Part shown: positions 14,501 through 38,091 of the stretch, piece by piece
Numbering within the stretch: the stretch's first letter is position 1
Layout: each line of letters starts with the position of its first letter
From: Ectocarpus siliculosus
Taxonomy: Eukaryota; Sar; Phaeophyceae; Ectocarpales; Ectocarpaceae
Reading direction: 5' to 3'
Assembly: GCA_000310025.1 (NCBI GenBank)
Contig: FN649737.1
Location: forward strand, 1,507,818-1,546,670
DNA length: 38,853 nt
Notes under the pieces: model-generated
What the model was told of the DNA's origin: nothing
What the model saw: the letters and a program-made list of their open reading frames with translations, nothing else
The model's database searches: none
Program-made: the position numbers and the translations under genes

Positions 14501-16808
14501 ACGCTGCGTGTGTTGGTGATGCCGATTGTCTGCACTAACAGGAGGCGTTTATGCGAGGGACGGAGAAGTACGCGCACGAGACGCAGCTGTCAAAAAGAGT
14601 CGGGGCGTGGCAGGAGAAGCTCGAGCCGCTCATGGAAAGGCAAGCTCGAGGGAAACGACGCTCTGCCGTTTGTACTGGACTGCTCGTCGATGTCCTTGTT
14701 GTTCAATCTCGAAGCTCTCCCTTCTCTTCAATGGCAAATACTTGTACGGTTTTTGTTAGTAACAATACCTACTACAGCCCCAACATAAGGGACACACACG
14801 CAAAAATATAAAAATATGACTCGAGTGAGTCCCAACATTTGCGAAGCAAATACCGCTATTATCATGTGGAACCACAACAAGCTCAGAGAGACGAAGAACT
14901 GCTGGAACAGATACTGTAAGGCCTGAGAGGGAAGCAGATCCCATCTTGGTGAGGCTCGTAATTGTTTCCGCAGCGACAACGGGGAGCTTGAGGTGGATTG
15001 CGTGCCATTGATGACCGTCCGCGACTGTTCGTGCCGCGCTTTGACCTTGACCAAACGTCCGTACAACACGGTACCAATGTTTTCAGCCAGGAGAAGAGGC
15101 AGGCGTTCGATATCCACGCTTACGGGCAGTCCGTCCTTTCGAGGGTGGCGTCGGTGTTAACTCCTGCCCAGAGGGCGAGAGCACACACGGCCGCCAAGGG
15201 AGTACACCCCAAGGTGCGGTGCGGTTATTGCCATGGTGCAATCATCGGTCGCCCCGGTAGTCTAGTTGGTATCCTCGAAAACCTTCTATAATAGTGGTAA
15301 GGGTCGGGGGTTCGAATCCCGGCGTAAGCGAGAGTTTCTTGCAAAGTGAGTAGAGTTTCTTGCAAAGTGAGTTTTTCTCTCGCTTCTGTTCCTGGCCTGG
15401 GTGGAAAACGCTAGTTCGTGTGTACACAGAGAGAGAAGAGAGTGCTGCACTCTTCTCGCATTAATAATCGAAGGCGAACCACCGCAGGAGGGGTGGGTAG
15501 GGGAGCTCAGTGGAAGGAACCCTTCTGTGTGACCACGGGTTAGAGTAAACGGCACAAGTGCTGTGTGACCACGGGTTGGAGTACACGGCACAAGTGCTGT
15601 GAGCGCTATTTTCAAGTGAAGACAAAAAAAAAATAGTACGGTTATTACCTTGTTTTCACCTTTGGGCTTGACCAGGTGGCAGGGGTGCATACATGTCTGC
15701 CTCGCGCTATCCACGTCTCTTTCTTGCCCTTCCCCGAACCGAATAGTCTACTTTTTTTAGCCATGGGCCGTATGCCCCTGCGTGTCCTGCCGGTCGAAAC
15801 AAAACTAACGCTTTCAACTAAGAAAACAGAGACCAGTACTGAACACTTAAGGGCTCCGCCGTGCGAAAGAGCTGAGCCACCCCGGGATTTATATCACCGT
15901 GATGTTTCGTTACTGCATGTTTTTTTTTCTTAGGTGGCGGACGACGCCGCAGCAAGTCCGGAGGAAGCTGTGCAGGCCGACACCGCTGAGCCTGACGTTC
16001 CTTTGGTCGACTTCGGCACGGTAGTGGCCGGGAAGGAGCGCTTCGACGTATGCCGGCTCTTCCTAGCGTCCCTTCAGCTGGTGAGAGAGGGGTCATTGAT
16101 AGCTGACGCGTAGAAGCGCCGCATTCTGAATCGCTAGAATGTCTGCTGCCTACCCGTGAGGGCGGAGGAGTATTAGTATTCGCTATACATGATGTATGGT
16201 CGTTTGAGACTGCCGTATCTGACCTGTACCCATCAATCGTGCGTGCGTCGGTGCAAGGAATGAGCTCGATACCTATCTATCAACGAATACGTCGAATCAC
16301 TCTGCTTGCTACTCCCACAGCTTCTCAATCCCCTTTGTCGCATCCATCCCCCGTGCTCCCGATTTCGTGCGTACTTTTCCCCGCCGGTCGTGGCCACCTC
16401 GACGGCATCCTGGCGCACCTTTTGGCGCATCCACCCTTGATTGATGATGCTTCCACGGGGGTGATGTTTGCCCTTGGTGGCACGACGGGGAACACCCACC
16501 AGGCGAACAATGGAAACGTCCGTCTCTTCCATGGGGACAACGCTGCCGACCAAGAGACAACTCCCTTCCGGCTCGAGCTACTCACGCTGCAAAACTCCGA
16601 CAACATGAGTGGGTATTTCGCGCCATCCGCTTCCGCAGCCGGCACCGGACCCGAGAACGTTCCGGCGAATGGCACGACGAAGAAGGGCACCAAGAACGGC
16701 GCTAGGAAGGGCGCAGAGGCGAAGACCAAGACGGGGGGCAGAAGAGGAGGTCGGGGTGGTATTGTGGGGACGAAAGAAACGCCGAGCATGATCCAGGCGG
16801 CCGTATGA
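8537..16808 (+). CDS. NCAPH2: Condensin-2 complex subunit H2 (kleisin)
   Basis: NCAPH2 is the kleisin of condensin II; it bridges the SMC2/SMC4 heads and binds the HEAT subunits during mitotic chromosome folding. The 14 exons are 8537-8598, 8816-8951, 9232-9393, 9770-10045, 10395-10670, 11060-11164, 11617-11819, 13019-13139, 13725-14021, 14542-14639, 14974-14992, 15091-15213, 15934-16080 and 16503-16808. Together they give 2331 nt, about 776 aa, with phase kept throughout. Signatures: [39 protein letters not shown] and [15 protein letters not shown] form the N-terminal family block; [10 protein letters not shown] with KGRTYKIP is the central block; [28 protein letters not shown] and [19 protein letters not shown] form the C-terminal block. 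Exons 5 and 9 encode long Gly/Asp-rich acidic spacers, and the end is a basic K/T/G-rich tail, so the protein exceeds the roughly 600 aa of the human form. The start is the first in-frame ATG, five residues before an acidic stretch. Confidence 0.93.
14640..14992 (+). other. GC-AG intron plus 19-nt microexon in NCAPH2
   Basis: Exon 10 must end in phase 2 to join the next coding segment, and no GT offers that phase nearby. The sequence AAAG|GCAAGC at 14639/14640 is a classic GC-donor context and gives phase 2. The intron ends at TTTCCGCAG (14973), followed by a 19-nt exon (14974-14992) that closes with GAG|GTGG. The microexon encodes roughly S-DNGELE and joins exon 12 ([12 protein letters not shown]) in phase 0. 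Confidence 0.72.
15233..15638 (+). mobile_element. tRNA-derived SINE in NCAPH2 intron 12
   Basis: The element carries a pol III A-box-like sequence (TAGTCTAGTTGG, about 15257-15268) and a perfect B box (GGTTCGAATCC, about 15309-15319), then a body shared with 24289-24590 and 38250-38552, and an A-rich tail (about 15623-15633). Flanking 11-mers CGGTTATTGCC (15222-15232) and CGGTTATTACC (15639-15649) differ at one base and look like a target-site duplication. This copy has two internal short tandem duplications missing from the others: TTTCTTGCAAAGTGAG twice (about 15331-15371) and a unit of about 36 bp twice (about 15525-15596). Confidence 0.8.
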
Positions 16809-20289: not shown

Positions 20290-20432
20290 ATGCACCATGA
20301 TATGCGTGTAGGACTTGTACTTTATGCATGACATACAAAAGTTGCACGTCGATGCTTCCATGTCCGTCCGTCCAACGTTACCATGGCAAACAATGCAACA
20401 GTGCTTGCGCGTGTTCCTCTCGACACGTGCAG

Positions 20433-23400
20433 GCAGCAGGTTTGGCGGCTGTGCTGGTGATGTCGGCAGCATTTCCTGAGTTCGACGAGGTGTGGCGTTG
20501 GGACGGATGGACAACTCTTGATGAGCATACCAATGATGGTGCGGTGGACTTGGACGGCAATGTCGTGCTCGTGGGGTCACAAGGCTACGCGGCCGCAGAA
20601 GACCTTCTCGATGACACTTTCGTAGATGCCTATTCCGGAGATTTTGCCGCCGTCAAGTTGGAGGGCGCGTCAGGCGAAGTGCTGTGGACTTGGACAGCTT
20701 CCTCTTTGGGGAGCGAAGCGGATATGTTTCTCGCAGTGGACACTGACAGCAACAACGATATCGTCATGGGAGGTCGGACGGAGGGGTACTGGTCATCGTC
20801 CAACCCCGACAGTGTCGCACATATAGCGGTCGTGAAGCTTGATGGGGGTACGGGGGATGAGATATGGAGGTACCAAGAACACCCTCCGGACTCGTACACG
20901 TCTTTGGGAAGTTATTTTTATTACGGTTACGGCAGCGTGAGCGGTGTGGCTGTCGACGGCGACGATAATTGCCTTTTGGTGGGCCAAACCTATGGCAGCC
21001 TGGTCTACGGCGAGGGTGACCCTGGAGATTCTGATTTCTTCGTCATCAAGCTAGACGGGACGGACGGTAGCGAGATCTGGACAGTACAAGGCGGAGAGTC
21101 GGCGAGCTTTGATTCATTGCACCACGTAAAGGTGGACTCGGGCGGAGATCTGATCGTCGTCGGCATAGGTGGAGACGAAGACGCGGTGAATGTTGTCGTG
21201 GTGAAGTTCAGCGGCACCGACGGCGCGGTTCTCTGGGAATATTCACCTGTCACGTCGTCCACTCATGATGTTCCCGCGTCGGTCGACGTTGACACCCAGG
21301 ACGATGTGTATATTGCTGGCGGCTACGATGCCCTGAATCTGCAGGGCACTCTAGCAGAAACTCCGGTGGTGCTGAAGCTAGACGGGGCGACAGGCGATGT
21401 CGTGTGGACCTACGAGGGCGTAGCCACATCGAGCGCTGGGTTCCGATCCGTAGCCGTGGATCTCACCACGGGGTGGGTTGTGGGTGCTGGCTGGACGACG
21501 GGGACCTGGTTGACGGGTGCAGCTCAAGGCGGCTATGACTTCGCGGCGGTGGTGCTAGATGGGGTCACTGGAGATGAACTAGGGCGCTACCAGGATGGTA
21601 CCACCGATGACGACAGTCTTAAGTTCGTTGGATTTGATTCTGTTGGGGGCTTAATCTTGGGGGGATCCTGGACGGACACCGGCGAAGCTGAGTTCGTCGC
21701 GATCAAATTTGCACCCTTCGAACTTGTAGCGCCTACACCGGCCCCTACCCTCCCTCCAACGCTCGCGCCAACGCTCGCCCGAACACCCGCGCCAACGGTC
21801 GCTCCAGTCACCTTGGCTCCCATGACGACTCCTTCCCCTCTAGCCATATCGGCGGATGCGGGCGATCCAACACCTGCTCCGTTTCAGTTGAACCAACCAC
21901 CCCAAACCACCGAGTCTCCAGTCGGCCGTGGCTTAACGACACCGGCCCCGACAACTTCGGCGGCTGCTGCAGCAGTGCTCTCCGAGTGGGAGATTGCGGC
22001 CATCGCAGGCGGGGGGTCGTTCCTCCTTCTACTCCTCGGGCTCTGTGAGTGCCGATAGCTGGCGAGGTCGATGGAGCGTGTCCGTTTTACCTTCGTTGCC
22101 GTACCGATTGAGCACAACGGTGATGCGTTAACGTCTGCCTTATGAGGCCGATTCCTTTTCCTTGTGTAGACCGAGCCTCTTGTCTCCTGATCCCGCCTGG
22201 TACTGGTCGTTTTGGAGGCTGTCGGGCGAGGTTCTTGGAGGACAGACAACACCATCATCCATGTTTGTTTTGTTGGCGGGTACCGCGTGAAAGGCCGTTT
22301 CGATCACTGCGTTCTTCGACGTGTTGTATCCTAACCGCACCTCAGGCCTTTTCTGCTTCAGACGCAAGCGCCCTGAAGGTCAGCAAGGTGCAGCCAAAGG
22401 TGCGTGCGTCGAACTAGCCAGCACCGGTAGGCCTTGGTGTCGGTTCAGGGCTTCCCCGGAGTCAGAGCAGCGAACTGGCGAAGCGGCGCTTGTTCATACC
22501 CTCAGTGCGATGCCCCAGTCATGCATGCAACCTCTGTCATGCGATCACCTTCCTCTCAGCAGGTGCATCGCGACCTCTTCCAGTGGAAGGTTTCGGCGGT
22601 TTGAGTGTGCAAGGCGAAATTCTTCAACCTCGACCGCCAGTCAAAGGTGGGAACGGCCTGTCGCTCTCATTTGGGCCTGCGGAGCACTCGGCATTATCTA
22701 TTGTTTTGTGGTGTCAATTGATGTCAGATTGGCAATATGTGGGACACCGTTCATGGTTCTGACGGCAGAAAGCACACGTGCTAGCTCCGTCGGTCGCTTT
22801 CGGCGGTGTACGTGTACTCTTAGTTTCGCCCTCGATGCAGAAACTGAGGTATCATTCTCTATCGTGACCCAGCGTGTTCGGGGGCTACTTGGAGCTGGTG
22901 TCTAGCGCAACCCTCACGTTCATGCAACGGCCTTGGCAATTGCAGGAACCACCTTAGCACTAGCACTTCGCCACGCTGGGATACCCAGCCGTTGTTGCAC
23001 ACATGCACCCACTCGTTTGCCAAAACAAAACCCTTAATCGCTTGTCAGAGGCATCACTTCACACCGTCCCCATTCGCTGTATCGACCAACCGCAGCGAGC
23101 GGAGTGGCAGAGTTTGCACCTCCTGCACCTCCTGCTCCAAAGACACCCCTGCCCCCACCGGCAGAACCCCCTCTCCCGCCACCACCGGCCTACAACTCGC
23201 CACCCCTTCCACCGCCTGAAGGTCAGAGCTGTTCGGCGATCAGGCACGGTTAATTTACGGCGTGCAATTTAGGAGGAATTATGCCGAAAAATCGGACAGT
23301 GTGCGGCGGGTCCGCTGTTGTTCTGTCGACTTGGCTGGGCAGTGACACTTTGATCGTGCCTGCCCTGAACCATCTTGCTGACAACATCTGAGTGAAGCAG

Positions 23401-24130
23401 GTGTTCATTCCGTAGATCAAGAACTTTCACCGCCATGGGATGTCCGTCGAGTTGAACGCCGTTTTGTTTGAAACCCCACGCAGTTGTTGCCACCGAGACC
23501 GAGGAGGTTCCGCCACCGCCACCCTACGAGGAGATGAATGCCCCGGAGCCTGCGGCAGCCCCGGCTGAAGCACCATGGGAACGACTAGGTGTGTTTTGCA
23601 GTCAAGCCTTCGACGAGCATGGTTTCGCGCCACCAACGTCGAGAATCCGGCACGTGTTGTATTTTTGGTCTCCTTGTTGATGAGCTGGTGTCATGACGAG
23701 GCTTGAGACCTCGATCTCATTGAATAGTCTCGAGTTCGTTGATAACCCTGTTTGCCCACTTCGTTTTTCGTCGGATGCTCCGCGGTCGTTTTTTGGGCAT
23801 GATTGTAACCATGCGGACGTGCATGCGGGTAGAATACTTTTTTGAAAACACTGTCACCCGAACAGGCGAAAGAGGCACGAGGCAAGCAGTGACACCGTTA
23901 CACCTACGGTTGAAGCGTTGATGGTGTCGAGTTGAAAGACAATTTCGTTTTTCCACTCTGCTTCAACTTCTGACATCGAACACGATGCGTTTCTGCCTCT
24001 TCGCCTTGTACTGTCCTGCACAGCCAAGCGAGTGGCCCGCGTCCCCAGCAAGAAAGCGTTCGAACAGAACTACCGAAACATTTCGGTCAGCCAGTACGCA
24101 CCGTACGCACCGTCTACAACCAACCGGTAG
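20433..24130 (+). CDS. Propeller-TM-PPxY surface protein, copy A
   Basis: I recognise no named family member; the gene looks like a single-pass membrane protein. Exons: 20433-22044, 22346-22399, 22560-22646, 23096-23221, 23484-23588 and 24024-24130 (stop TAG); 2091 nt, at least 696 aa. Exon 1 begins with a hydrophobic run (AAGLAAVLVMSAA, signal-like), then a beta-propeller built from repeats such as VKLEGASGEVLWTW, VKLDGGTGDEIWRY, IKLDGTDGSEIW and LKLDGATGDVVWTY (SBBP/PQQ-like). A Thr/Pro/Ala stalk (about 21730-21990) follows, then the helix IAAIAGGGSFLLLLLGL. Splicing at CTCT|GTGAGT adds CLFCFRRKRPE, a stop-transfer. The tail is Pro-rich with PPPPPYEEM and ends APYAPSTTNR. Without splicing the frame stops at 22058, just after the helix. 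The start is unresolved: an upstream exon, or the in-frame ATG at 20328, which gives a region not conserved in copy B. Confidence 0.82.
22560..22562 (+). promoter_or_regulatory. NAGNAG tandem splice acceptor
   Basis: CTCTCAGCAG|GTGC offers two acceptors three bases apart before tail exon 3. Using the second removes one codon (GCA to G..; A/G boundary) and keeps the frame. The same sequence is present in copy B at 36518-36520. Confidence 0.5.
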
Positions 24131-27277: not shown

Positions 27278-28777
27278 TTACTTATCGCTCTTGAACGGCT
27301 GCTGAATCATGTTTACTAGAGCTGCAACCACATGGAAGCACATCTCCAAGTGATCGAGTTGCTTATGGTTGAATTTCTTGTCGACGATACTCCACTTCTT
27401 CATGGCCCCGATTGCCCGCTCTACATGAATGCGCAAATTCGCTACCTCTCAGTTGGATTCCATGTCGGCTTGCGTGAACTGCTTCTCCTTCTGTCGCTTG
27501 TAAGGGGGCGCCACGTACAGGAAACCTTCCTCGGTCAACAACGGCGGCACTGAATTGAACCTCTTGTCCGCCATGACCATGAGGCCTTCGTGACCAAGGC
27601 CATTGTCCCTCATGGCGTCGACAAAACCAGACGCCTTTACAACCTCAACATCGGACATCCTACCGGGATACGCGGGCCCAATGTAACGAATCGCACCCCC
27701 AAGGGTGGCCGCGACAAGTAATTTCGCCGTCTGTCGCCCTTGTACGTGGAATATGTGATCCAGTTCCAGTCAATTTGCCAAGACCTGAAAATCTCTAACT
27801 CAGTGGCGTCCAGAACTAGAACACACTTTGCATACCCATGATCGACAAAGTTCTGCGGGACGAACTCGTCCACCTCTGCTAAAGTAGGAAGACGAACCAA
27901 CGGCCGAAGACTACGCCAAGGGAAGTTCAACCACGTCGTGAACGCCCTTCCCCCGGTAGTCTCGTGGACACCAAACAGGGCCGATGCCACCACAATTGGC
28001 GTTGCGGTGCGCAGGACCATCAACGTGAAAGAAAGTCCGTTCATTCCCCGAAATATATTTCGCCTCTGCTCAACCCTTGTCCCCTCTGCTGTTAACCCGC
28101 CTCCCTCTCGCTGGTCATAGAACACCATATTCTCCGCCTGACCCTCAGCATCCAGGAACTCGTACAACTTCTGCAGGCAGTGGCACGTGGGGTGATGGCG
28201 ACGATGCGACGAAGGTTGCATTGCGGGTATCAGCACATGAAAACTATCTGCATGGCTCGGTTAACAGTAGATGTAACATAAAATATTCTGACTCTGCATC
28301 CGACGGGCGCGGAGTTTTCGTGACCTTTCGTTGCCGTTAAACAAAACACGACCCCTCCACTTTCCCAACAGAAGAGCAGCAACAGCAGCAGTCACCCTAT
28401 AGCAGTCACCCTATAGAGGCGAAAAACATCAAGGGTCGATCCGGACTCTGCTAGATTGGTAGCGAAACCAATACAATGGAAGGAACTTACATACCGCACT
28501 ACCGCGCTAGCTCATTCTTGACGAGAAATATGTCATTATGGCCTTTTATGTCAAGAACAACGATTTACGCGCTGCTGTATGCATGTATGCATTCTTCAGC
28601 AGCGGTCTGTGGAGCATATACTTATTTTACAACTGCTGCTGTGTCGGCGGCATGCAGTAATGTGGCGTGCTCGTCGATTACGGAACTGGCCGGTTTAGAG
28701 AGAGACAGAGCGAGAGACAGAGGGAAAGAGAGGGAGAGAGAGGGAGGGACACATGGGCAGAGAGAGACAGAGCGATT

Positions 28778-33990: not shown

Positions 33991-36900
33991 GCAGCAGGTT
34001 TGGCGACTGTGCTGGTGATGTCGGCAGGAACACCTGAGTTCGACGAGGTGTGGCGTTGGGACGGATGGACAACTCTTGATGACCATGCCCATGATGGTGC
34101 GGTCGATTTGGACGGCAATGTCGTGCTCGTGGGGTCACAAGGCTACGCGGCCGCAGAAGGCCTTCTCGATGACACTTTTGTAGATACCTATTCCGGAGAT
34201 TTCGCCGCCGTCAAGTTGGAGGGCGCGTCAGGCGAAGTGCTGTGGACTTGGACAGCTTCCTCTTTGGGGAGCGAAGCGGATACGTTTCTCGCAGTGGACA
34301 CTGACAGCAACAACGATATCGTCATGGGAGGTCGGACGGAGGGGTACTGGTCATCGTCCAACCCCGACAGTGTCGCACATATAGCGGTCGTGAAGCTTGA
34401 TGGGGGTACGGGGGATGAGATATGGAGGTACCAAGAACACCCTCCGGACTCGTACACGTCTTGGGGGATTTATTTTTACTACGGTTACGGCAGCGTGAGC
34501 GGTGTGGCTGTCGACGGCGACGATAATTGCCTTTTGGTGGGCCAAACCTATGGCAGCCTGGTCTACGGTGAGGGTGACCCTGGAGATTCTGATTTCTTTG
34601 TCATCAAGCTAGACGGGACGGACGGTAGCGAGATCTGGACAGTACAAGGCGGAGAGTCGGCGAGCTTTGATTCATTGCACCACGTAAAGGTGGACTCGGG
34701 CGGAGATCTGATCGTCGTCGGCATAGGCGGAGACGAAGACGCAGTGAATGTTGTCGTGGTGAAGTTCAGCGGCACCGACGGCGCCGTTCTCTGGGAATAT
34801 TCACCTGTCACGTCGTCCACTCATGATGTTCCCGCGTCGGTCGACGTTGACACCCAGGACGATGTGTATATTGCTGGCGGCTACGATGCCCTGAATCTGC
34901 AGGGCACTCTAGCAGAAACTCCGGTGGTGCTGAAGCTAGACGGGGCGACAGGCGATGTCGTGTGGACCTACGAGGGCGTAGCCACATCGAGCGCTGGGTT
35001 CCGATCCGTAGCCGTGGATCTCACCACGGGGTGGGTTGTGGGTGCTGGCTGGACGACGGGGACCTGGTTGACGGGTGCAGCTCAAGGCGGCTATGACTTC
35101 GCGGCGGTGGTGCTAGATGGGGTCACTGGAGATGAACTGGGGCGCTACCAGGATGGTACCACCGATGACGACAGTCTTTCGTTCGCTGGATTCGATTCTG
35201 TTGGGGGCTTAATCTTGGGGGGATCCTGGACGGACACCGGCGAAGATGAGTTCGTGGCGATCAAGTTCGCCCCCTGGAACTCGAGTTACCCCACAACGGG
35301 GACGGAAGCACTTGCCCATTGGGAGATCGGGGCCATCGCAGGCGCGGGGGCTTTGTTCCTTTTACTCCTCGGGCTCTGTGAGTGCCGATAGCAGGCTAGG
35401 TCGATGGAGCGCGTCGGGTACAGATTTCGTTTGCTACCGTGAAGACCGAAGTAAATATATGCTTTTTGTTCAGAATATCCATATTTACCTTCTTCCGGAG
35501 ATATTATCAATCCTGCAATTTTTCTTTGGCCAGGGGTTGGGAGTGTTTGCCAGGGATTGGAGAGTAACTTCGGGGGAGACAATCCTCAAGAGGACAGCTG
35601 AGAATCGATGTCGTTTACACCCCCAGCATGCTAAGCCATCGCTTCCCGCGGAAATAAATCTCTACACCGTGACGGAGAGTCTCTACACTATCCACGAGCA
35701 TTGAGATGACAGTTTTTCATACATTCCATAGTCAGACGCCTTCCACTCGAACAATCCTGTACGTCGCCCATTGGGCAAGTTCTACCAGACTGGAGCACCA
35801 TGTGTTGGGGTGAGATCACGACCCTCCCCGGCCGGTTCAGCGTTGGCATCGAAATTTGTAGCTACGTGGTCGGTCGTTTTATTGCGAGAGAAAGGTGGGC
35901 GTGAATTGAAAGGCGACAACGCCAACTGATGGAAAGCGGGAATCAGTGTCCCCTGTTGGCTTCCGAGAGGTGAAACCCATTTTTTCTGCCGAGTGGAGTT
36001 GCTCGCAGCGGGCCCGTGTAAAGAACGCACGTCGGCTCGTTAGGTCGGTTTTACCTTCGTTGCCGTACCGATTGAGCACAACGGTGATGCGTTAACGTCT
36101 GCCTTATGAGGCCGATACCTTGTGTAGACCGAGCCTCTTGTCTCCTGATCCCGCCTGGTACTGGTCGTTTTTGAGGCTGTCGGGCGAGGTTGTTGGAGCA
36201 TAGACAACACCATCATCCATGTTTGTTTTGTTGGCGGGTACCGCGTGAAAGGCCGTTTCGATCACTGCGTTCTTCGACGTGTTGTATCCTAACCGCACCT
36301 CAGGCCTTTTCTGCTTCAGACGCAAGCGCCCTGAAGGTCAGCAAGGTGCAGCCAAAGGTGCGTGCGTCGAACTAGCCAGCACCGGTAGGCCTTGGTGTCG
36401 GTTCAGGGCTTCCCCGGAGTCAGAGCAGCGAACTGGCGAAGCGGCGCTTGTTCATACCCCCAGTGCGATGCCCCAGTCATGCATGCAACCTCTGTCATGC
36501 GATCACCTTCCTCTCAGCAGGTGCATCGCGACCTCTTCCAGTGGAAGGTTTCGGCGGTTTGAGTGTGAAAGGCGAAATTCTTCAACCTCGACCGCCAGTC
36601 AAAGGTGGGAACGGCCTGTCGCTCTCATTTGGGCCTGCGGAGCACTCGGCATTAGCTATTGTTTTGTGGTGTCAATTGATGTCAGATTGGCAATATGTGG
36701 GAAACCCTTCTTGGTTCTGACGGCAGAAAGCACACGTGCTAGCTCCGTCGGTCGCTTTCGGCGGTGTACGTGTACTCTTAGTTTCGCCCTCGATGCAGAA
36801 ACTGAGGTATCATTCTCTATCGTGAACCCAGCGTGTTCGGGAGCTACTTGGAGCTGGTGTCTAGCGCAACCCTCACGTTCATGCAACGGCCTTGGCAATT

Positions 36901-38091
36901 GCAGGAACCACCTTAGCACTAGCACTTCACCAGGCTGGGATACCCAGCCGTTGTTGCACACATGCACCCACTCGTTTGCCAAAACAAAACCCTTAATCGC
37001 TTGTCAGAGGCATCACTTCACACCGTCCCCATTCGCTATATCGACCAACCGCAGCGAGCGGAGTGGCAGAGTTTGCACCTCCTGCACCTCCTGCTCCAAA
37101 GACACCCCTGCCCCCACCGGCAGAACCCCCTCTCCCGCCACCACCGGCCTACAACTTGCCACCCCTTCCACCGCCTGAAGGTCAGAGCTGTTCGGCGATC
37201 AGGCACGGTTAATTTACGGCATGCAATTTAGGAGGAATTATGCCGAAAAATCGGACAGTGTGCGGCGGGTCCGCTGTTGTTCTGTCGACTTGGCTGGGCA
37301 GTGACACGTTGATCGTGCCTGCCCTGAACCATCTTGCGGACAACATCTGAGTGAAGCAAGTGTTCATTCCGTAGATCAAGAACTTTCACCGCCATGGGAT
37401 ATCCGTCGAGTTGAACGCCGTTTTGTTTGAAACCCCACGCAGTTGTTGCCACCGAGACCGAGGAGGTTCCACCACCGCCACCCTACGAGGAGATGAATGC
37501 CCCGGAGCCTGCGGCAGCCCCGGCTGAAGCACCATGGGAACGACTAGGTGCGTTTTGCAGTCAAGCCTTCGACGAGCATGGTTTCGCGCCACCAACGTCG
37601 AGAATCCGGCACGTGTTGTATTTTTGGTCTCCTTGTTGATGAGCTGGTGTCATGACGAGGCTTGAGACCGTGTCGATCTCATTGAATAGTCTCGAGTTCG
37701 TTGATAACCCTGTTTGCCCACTTCGTTTTTCGTCGGGTGCTCCGCGGTCGTTTTTGGGCATGATCGTAACCATGCGCACGTGCATGCGGGTAGAATACTT
37801 TTTTGAAAACACTGTCACCCGAACAGGCGAAAGAGGCACGAGGCAAGCAGTGACACCGTTACACCTACGGTTGCAGCGTTGATGGTGTCGAGTTGAAAGA
37901 AAATTTCGTTTTTCCACTCTGCTTCAACTTCTGACATCGAACACGATGCGTTTCTGCCTCTTCGCCTTGTACTGTCCTGCACAGCCAAACGAGTGGCCCG
38001 CGTCCCCAGCAAGAAAGCGTTCGAACAGAACTACCGAAACACGTCGGTCAGCCAGTACGCACCGTACGCACCGTCTACAACCAACCGGTAG
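33991..38091 (+). CDS. Propeller-TM-PPxY surface protein, copy B
   Basis: Paralogue of the gene at 20433-24130 with the same exon plan: 33991-35377, 36304-36357, 36518-36604, 37055-37180, 37443-37547 and 37985-38091 (stop TAG); 1866 nt, at least 621 aa. All junction phases are kept (phase 1 at every tail boundary), as are the propeller repeats, the helix (IGAIAGAGALFLLLLGL), the RRKRPE stop-transfer, PPPPPYEEM and the APYAPSTTNR end. The Thr/Pro stalk of copy A is replaced by a short linker (WNSSYPTTGTEALAH), placing the propeller close to the membrane. Substitutions in the tail are few and none breaks the frame, which suggests that both copies are functional or very recently duplicated. An in-frame ATG at 33937 would give a short basic N-region before the hydrophobic run; it does not align in frame with copy A, so the true start may lie in an unseen exon. 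Confidence 0.82.
35413..36048. mobile_element. Insertion in intron 1 of copy B
   Basis: About 631 bp is present here but absent from the matching place in copy A (22080-22085). GTCGG occurs at both edges (35413-35417 and 36044-36048), while the empty site in copy A reads GTCCG, consistent with a 5-bp target duplication. I see no inverted termini, pol III boxes or ORF of note. A deletion in copy A is the alternative. Confidence 0.5.

Follow-up and report, generated by a model that had tools for sequence, protein, structure and literature searches.

We analysed a window of 38,853 nucleotides of the brown alga Ectocarpus siliculosus (contig FN649737.1, positions 1,507,818 to 1,546,670), with the focus on a gene on its plus strand at 20433-24130 (positions given without a contig are those of the window). 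The locus is a brown-algal nuclear gene of which six exons were identified, and we refer to it as copy A. A second copy, B, lies in the same window at 33991-38091 and had been left out of the initial annotation, a description of copy A made from the DNA letters alone; further relatives elsewhere in the genome are labelled C to F and X24. The predicted product of copy A combines a seven-repeat ectodomain related to the SBBP propellers, a hydrophobic helix, and a proline-rich tail with PPxY motifs of the kind bound by WW domains. The coordinates of all its parts are collected in Table 1.

The gene model

Read without splicing, the open frame of the first exon ends just after the helix, at a stop at 22058. 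As the initial annotation had claimed, this stop lies 14 bases past a donor site (CTCT/GTGAGT), and splicing at this donor opens five further exons. When the six exons of 1612, 33, 87, 111, 105 and 107 bases were joined and translated, all of them were open, each of the five introns was in phase 1 with GT-AG borders, and the product, read from the acceptor at 20433, had 684 residues before the stop at 24130. The three peptides expected in the spliced tail, RRKRPE, PPPPPYEEM and APYAPSTTNR, are all present. By eye, two of the exons have alternative acceptors that leave the frame unchanged: a tandem CAGCAG at exon 3, and a site 15 nt upstream of exon 4.

It should be pointed out that 20433 is the position of an acceptor and not of a start, and no ATG opens the model of copy A there. 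In copies B and C, an ATG in the right frame lies 54 bases upstream of the position matching 20433; in copy A, 14 of those 54 bases are absent, which puts the matching ATG out of frame, and other in-frame ATGs are found further up. As read by eye, B, C, D and F share the AG at 20431-20432, E has lost it, and an indel displaces it in X24. The protein would either start from an upstream exon or start differently in different copies.

Conservation of the spliced tail

The case for the tail comes from the comparison of paralogs, in which conservation follows the predicted exon borders. Between A and C, 390 of 437 exon positions are identical (89.2%), as compared with 1025 of 1353 (75.8%) in the introns and their 60-base flanks (Fisher p = 3.5e-10). 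The exons carry two indels, of 9 and 6 bases, both in frame, whereas only 7 of the 29 intron indels are multiples of three; all six exons of copy C remain in frame. The exon-1 donor GTGAGT is kept in all six copies that reach this point (A to F), while the read-through stop is common only to A and B and is shifted or missing elsewhere. The more diverged copy E gives a similar picture for exons 2, 4 and 6, which are 84.8%, 85.3% and 78.6% identical to those of A as compared with 63-74% for the introns. In the alignment behind these figures, the rows of exon 1 were out of register and left aside, and exon 6 of B, C and D was read separately. Judged by these comparisons, the splice model at 20433-24130 holds, and the spliced tail proposed at the outset is backed by its conservation across paralogs. 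The constraint on the tail is weak to moderate; the A-B pair was too shallow for the NG86 method, and its result was left unused.

Copies and relatives

A search of the genome with the ectodomain found four additional copies, all on the contig of A and within about 79 kb, namely C (93%), D (74%), E (79%) and F (47-55% by exon), together with X24, a partial copy on contig C24 with 75% identity over residues 4-218. In this local cluster (C12:1528250-1607076), three copies are intact, one is a pseudogene, one is decaying and one is only distantly related. Copies B and C give complete six-exon models, as A does, and copy E retains an open ectodomain along with exons 2, 4 and 5. The ectodomain is one open frame in A, B, C and E; in F it is interrupted by three introns, and the four exons lead to the same helix and the same phase-1 donor.

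The aligned DNA of A and B is 95.0% identical in the block of the ectodomain and 97.7% in that of the tail with its introns; the 96 bases between the two are 88.5% identical. Between A and C, the synonymous divergence of the ectodomain (dS 0.12) is lower than the divergence of the tail introns (24%), a pattern that hints at gene conversion between copies or at a mosaic history.

When the tail of A was used as the query on the genome (136 residues, exon 2 excluded), all ten matches were exons of A, B and C. This search cannot show absence elsewhere because it missed the tail exons already known from D and E, and more distant tails may exist. No relatives were found in the scanned collections of genome contigs, viral contigs and plasmids. 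Two other loci of the genome carry SBBP-like genes, which were read as open frames and not as spliced models. The one at C15:415500-425400 has SBBP-like blades, a helix-like hydrophobic segment and a long tail; the one at C33:1985500-1994000 has roughly one blade in each exon, along with a Thr/Pro stretch and a C-terminus that is hydrophobic. Both resemble the present gene in their repeated blades and hydrophobic C-terminal segment and differ from it in their tails, in which no PPxY was seen by eye.

The ectodomain

The ectodomain of A is made of seven repeats of 48-71 residues, which align with seven repeats of 54-66 residues in F, and most of the repeats share the pattern W...VD..G...G...DF..VKLDG.TG. 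The NCBIfam model for an SBBP lipoprotein family, NF047494, matches copies A, B and E with E-values of 2.8e-12, 1.2e-12 and 1.5e-11, at 46.1, 47.3 and 43.7 bits as compared with an equivalog cut-off of 400. The Pfam SBBP family, PF06739, gave 7.5 bits for A, 7.9 for B, 20.2 for copy E and 10.7 for X24, none of which reaches the cut-off of 20.5; no PF06739 match was listed for F in the Pfam scan. By these profiles, the ectodomain is related to the SBBP propellers through kinship and not through membership of the family, and its fold is probably a beta-propeller. The head had been described initially as an SBBP/PQQ-like propeller: the SBBP part of this description stands; a PQQ_2 match of X24 (E 0.09) was below its cut-off.

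The SBBP/LipL53-type propeller proteins (PF06739, NF047494) offer a close likeness, in the repeat pattern and in a detectable kinship of the ectodomain, with scores far below the family cut-offs. Those proteins are held by a bacterial lipoprotein anchor, whereas here there is a membrane helix followed by a tail. A propeller of another type is known from brown algae: CBN77719.1 is described (PMC3192720) as an integrin-alpha-like protein with a seven-bladed propeller. That propeller belongs to the integrin type and carries calcium motifs; for the present ectodomain no FG-GAP (integrin alpha) match was listed in Pfam at E <=10, with HMMER filters that already drop most weak matches.

Several other assignments were tried and rejected. 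The FAM234A/B propeller (E 0.29 for A, 0.15 for B), the WG repeats (E 0.07 for X24) and TMEM51 (E 0.018 for F) all fell below their cut-offs, and a profile search of the PDB listed two matches only, with E-values of 0.54 and 0.56. The reading of the acidic blade loops as calcium sites was dropped because F is, by eye, without conserved acidic loops.

Helix, stalk and tail motif

The Kyte-Doolittle maximum (window of 19) spans the junction of exons 1 and 2 and reaches 2.31 in A, 2.56 in B and 2.60 in C, with RRK directly after it, in agreement with the helix and basic stop-transfer originally described. We infer a cytoplasmic tail because basic residues follow the helix. The stalk is not a constant feature: copies A, E and F have a long one rich in Pro and Thr, and in B and C its place is taken by a linker of some 17 residues. 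From exon 2 to the stop at 24130 there are 147 residues, most of them in Pro-rich sequence, and no kinase domain of the receptor-kinase type was seen when this segment was read from its sequence, without a Pfam scan.

The PPPPPYEEM on which the initial annotation had based its PPxY tail is found in exon 5; a second motif, PPAY in exon 4, had been overlooked. Copies A and B carry PPAY and PPPY, copy E carries PPAY and PPSY, and copy C has PPSY only. The exon-5 site belongs to a longer form, PPPxYxx-hydrophobic, which reads PPPPYEEM in A and B, PPPSYEEM in C and PPPSYGDL in E, and which is lost in D and absent from F. Copy E keeps the hydrophobic residue at Y+3 although the residues between have changed (YEEM to YGDL). 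The overlap of a PPPxY with a YxxPhi endocytic signal has been described (PMC7973139) for the C-terminal PPPxYxxL of the ENaC subunits. By analogy with ENaC, where this overlap also sits within a C-terminal tail, the exon-5 motif reads best as PPPxYxx-hydrophobic, in which a putative WW-binding (PY) site and a putative endocytic signal share one tyrosine. ENaC is an unrelated protein and a channel.

Candidate partners in the genome

A WW-domain partner in the general sense, as had been suggested, is supported by the gene content of this alga. The genome gave 75 WW matches in 40 same-strand clusters (gaps <20 kb). Among the best 40 of the 75, whose sequences were read and which include two that are identical, 18 show the pattern His...Lys/Arg/Gln-x-Thr, which we take to be the PPxY-binding (group I) signature. 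One locus stands out as a candidate scaffold: C15:1688048-1696410 holds nine WW matches in nine open frames, and the group I-like pattern was seen in 8 of the 8 that were fetched. This cluster was read as open frames only, and its flanks hold runs of N. Candidate partners for an endocytic signal are also encoded, with 14 matches to the mu-type subunits of clathrin adaptors, nine of them above the cut-off.

The more specific proposal of a Nedd4-type partner did not fare as well. Among 28 HECT matches in 14 clusters, the closest WW-HECT pair on the same strand is 88 kb apart, which leaves a Nedd4-type ligase unsupported; no WW-HECT gene was seen in this genome, although weak or intron-split exons could hide one. 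This is a further difference from the ENaC system.

Interpretation and alternatives

With moderate confidence, we read the gene as encoding a single-pass type I surface protein with a seven-bladed SBBP head, a variable stalk, a membrane helix and a Pro-rich tail that bears a combined WW/endocytic motif. In such a protein, the head would lie outside the cell and bind the wall or another extracellular ligand. Inside, the PPPxYxx-hydrophobic motif would recruit a WW-domain adaptor, and the overlapping YxxPhi could recruit clathrin adaptors at the same tyrosine; WW binding and endocytosis together might then set the surface level of the receptor or its link to the cytoskeleton. This mode of action would be like that of the ENaC or dystroglycan tails, with no kinship to either. 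Among the top papers listed by our searches of the open-access literature, none dealt with a propeller-PPxY receptor of brown algae; the initial statement that the architecture is undescribed is consistent with this, without absence being established. The family is of interest because it provides a concrete and testable candidate for what joins a seaweed cell to its wall: the predicted proteins combine a large domain outside with a docking motif inside that can be defined. Copy F is a natural point of comparison, since its head is related and its tail differs.

A number of observations weigh against the favoured reading. The start exon of copy A was not found, and AlphaFold, when run on the two ectodomains of the window with a two-row alignment, gave a pLDDT (predicted local distance difference test) of 31.7 and no usable model. 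Not all of the paralogs speak for the tail. A and B are identical at 437 of 443 exon positions and 1441 of 1461 intron positions (p = 1), and copy B adds little support because exons and introns of this pair have diverged equally. Between A and E, the identities of exon 3 (72.9%) and exon 5 (68.7%) do not rise above those of the introns, and the ratio of nonsynonymous to synonymous divergence (dN/dS) in the A-C tail is 0.104/0.161, or about 0.65. Copy D, with stops in its ectodomain and exon 2 and a changed exon-2 donor, is by these lesions a pseudogene; in copy E, exon 3 contains a stop and has lost its donor, and a TGA closes exon 5, so that the tail of this copy is, to judge from the sequence, decaying; and X24 is truncated. 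Copy C has lost the exon-4 PPxY (PPAY), and the tail of copy F is different and acidic, and is without PPxY. Lastly, tails of this composition are modestly likely to produce the short motif by chance: at least one PPxY is found in 26-31% of the shuffled tails of A, B and C, and at least two in 3-4.5% (31% and 4.5% for A). The longer form of the motif is much rarer in shuffles, and it was chosen post hoc.

These points bear most directly on the chief rival, in which the gene encodes a real membrane protein whose Pro-rich tail is flexible and weakly constrained, with PPxY as a by-product of its proline richness. The shuffles, the dN/dS value, the loss of PPAY in C and the tail of F all fit such a tail. 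Because composition alone can yield PPxY, a bare PPxY is not strong evidence and needs the support of paralogs. Against the by-product reading, PPPxYxx-hydrophobic appears in only 1.6%, 1.5%, 1.2% and 0.9% of the shuffled tails of A, B, C and E, respectively, and is kept in all four of these copies despite the change from YEEM to YGDL. The less demanding PPxYxx-hydrophobic appears in 2.6-5.9% of shuffles, and two or more PPxY in 1.2% of those of copy E. The per-copy figures are not to be multiplied: copies of common descent do not count as four independent events, and the form of the motif was picked after the sequence had been seen. On balance, we consider the by-product explanation doubtful, while taking it as the most serious of the alternatives.

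An unlikely alternative, though one with a precedent, is a wall or adhesion anchor of the dystroglycan kind, in which a WW partner ties the tail to the cytoskeleton without any role for endocytosis. Dystroglycan also has an extracellular part, a single helix and a tail with two PPxY; according to PMC2660313, its PPxY is bound by the WW domain of dystrophin, and the two tail PPxY are partly redundant in the fly. It differs from the present protein, which has a propeller-like head and for which the Pfam matches listed include no dystroglycan family; nor is a partner of the dystrophin type known here, although no search was aimed at one. For heterokonts, WW-bearing myosins of class IV have been reported (PMC3942036), and these could in principle serve as the cytoskeletal partner. 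Two observations speak against such an anchor. In a comparison that took in 25 of the 96 myosin-head matches, no same-strand WW match was found within 83 kb of any of them, and the hydrophobic Y+3 residue of YxxPhi is kept.

That the gene should simply end at 22058, as a tail-less or intron-retained form ending in CECR with the downstream exons being chance open stretches, is highly improbable: the frame does run on to a stop just past the donor, the A-B pair cannot tell exon from intron, and a tail-less form may occur as a minor isoform, but the A-C constraint tracks the exon borders with in-frame exon indels, and the donor is kept from A to F where the read-through stop is not.

The reading of a single-pass surface protein with a WW/endocytic tail could be carried one step further. 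The family might represent a matrix-receptor class that brown algae evolved by themselves, in which the SBBP propeller reads a wall polymer or protein and the tail connects it both with scaffolds of many WW domains (the nine-WW cluster on C15 is an example) and with uptake by clathrin. We hold this extension to be quite improbable. If it were true, there would be a route from the algal wall into the cell that uses neither a kinase nor an integrin, and the relatives (copy F and the SBBP-like genes on C15 and C33) would be the same kind of head with other tails and anchors.

Table 1. Positions in the window of the features of copies A and B.
Feature	Position	Strand	Basis or remark
Copy A, exon 1 (ectodomain, stalk, most of membrane helix)	20433..22044	+	donor GTGAGT after 22044
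Copy A, hydrophobic stretch AAGLAAVLVMSAAFP, probable signal-peptide end	20433..20477	+	sequence
Copy A, seven-repeat SBBP-like ectodomain, probably beta-propeller	20478..21722	+	aligned repeats, NF047494/PF06739 scores
Copy A, Pro/Thr-rich stalk	21723..21974	+	translations
Copy A, membrane helix, runs on into exon 2	21993..22044	+	Kyte-Doolittle
Copy A, exon 2, helix end and basic stop-transfer LFCFRRKRPE	22346..22378	+	
Copy A, exon 3, putatively cytoplasmic	22560..22646	+	broken in copy E
Copy A, exon 4, Pro-rich, PPAY at 23182-23193	23111..23221	+	
Copy A, exon 5, PPPPPYEEM at 23510-23536 (PPPxYxx-hydrophobic)	23484..23588	+	
Copy A, exon 6, C-terminus ...QYAPYAPSTTNR and stop	24024..24130	+	
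Copy B, ectodomain exon (short linker)	33991..35377	+	
Copy B, exon 2	36304..36336	+	
Copy B, exon 3	36518..36604	+	
Copy B, exon 4	37070..37180	+	
Copy B, exon 5	37443..37547	+	
Copy B, exon 6	37985..38091	+	

Other features of the window and genome

A repeat with a tRNA-like start is present in three copies at 15247, 24285 and 38246, in which ARAGORN calls no tRNA; it is probably a tRNA-derived short interspersed nuclear element. The block at 24283-24593 matches an intron of copy F at 88.9%. On the minus strand, 27449-28260 holds transposase fragments, presumably PIF/Harbinger-like, with matches to DDE_Tnp_4 (E 1.8e-11) and HTH_Tnp_4 (E 2.3e-5, below the cut-off). An open frame at 8736-9599 matches the N-terminus of the condensin II subunit CAP-H2 (PF06278, E 2.2e-19). 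In the genome at large, EsV-1-7 repeats gave at least 150 matches (150 of 880 candidates scored); this family is reported to be expanded in brown algae (PMC7457493), and the matches are in keeping with a brown-algal genome. A search for the large subunit of rubisco gave no match.

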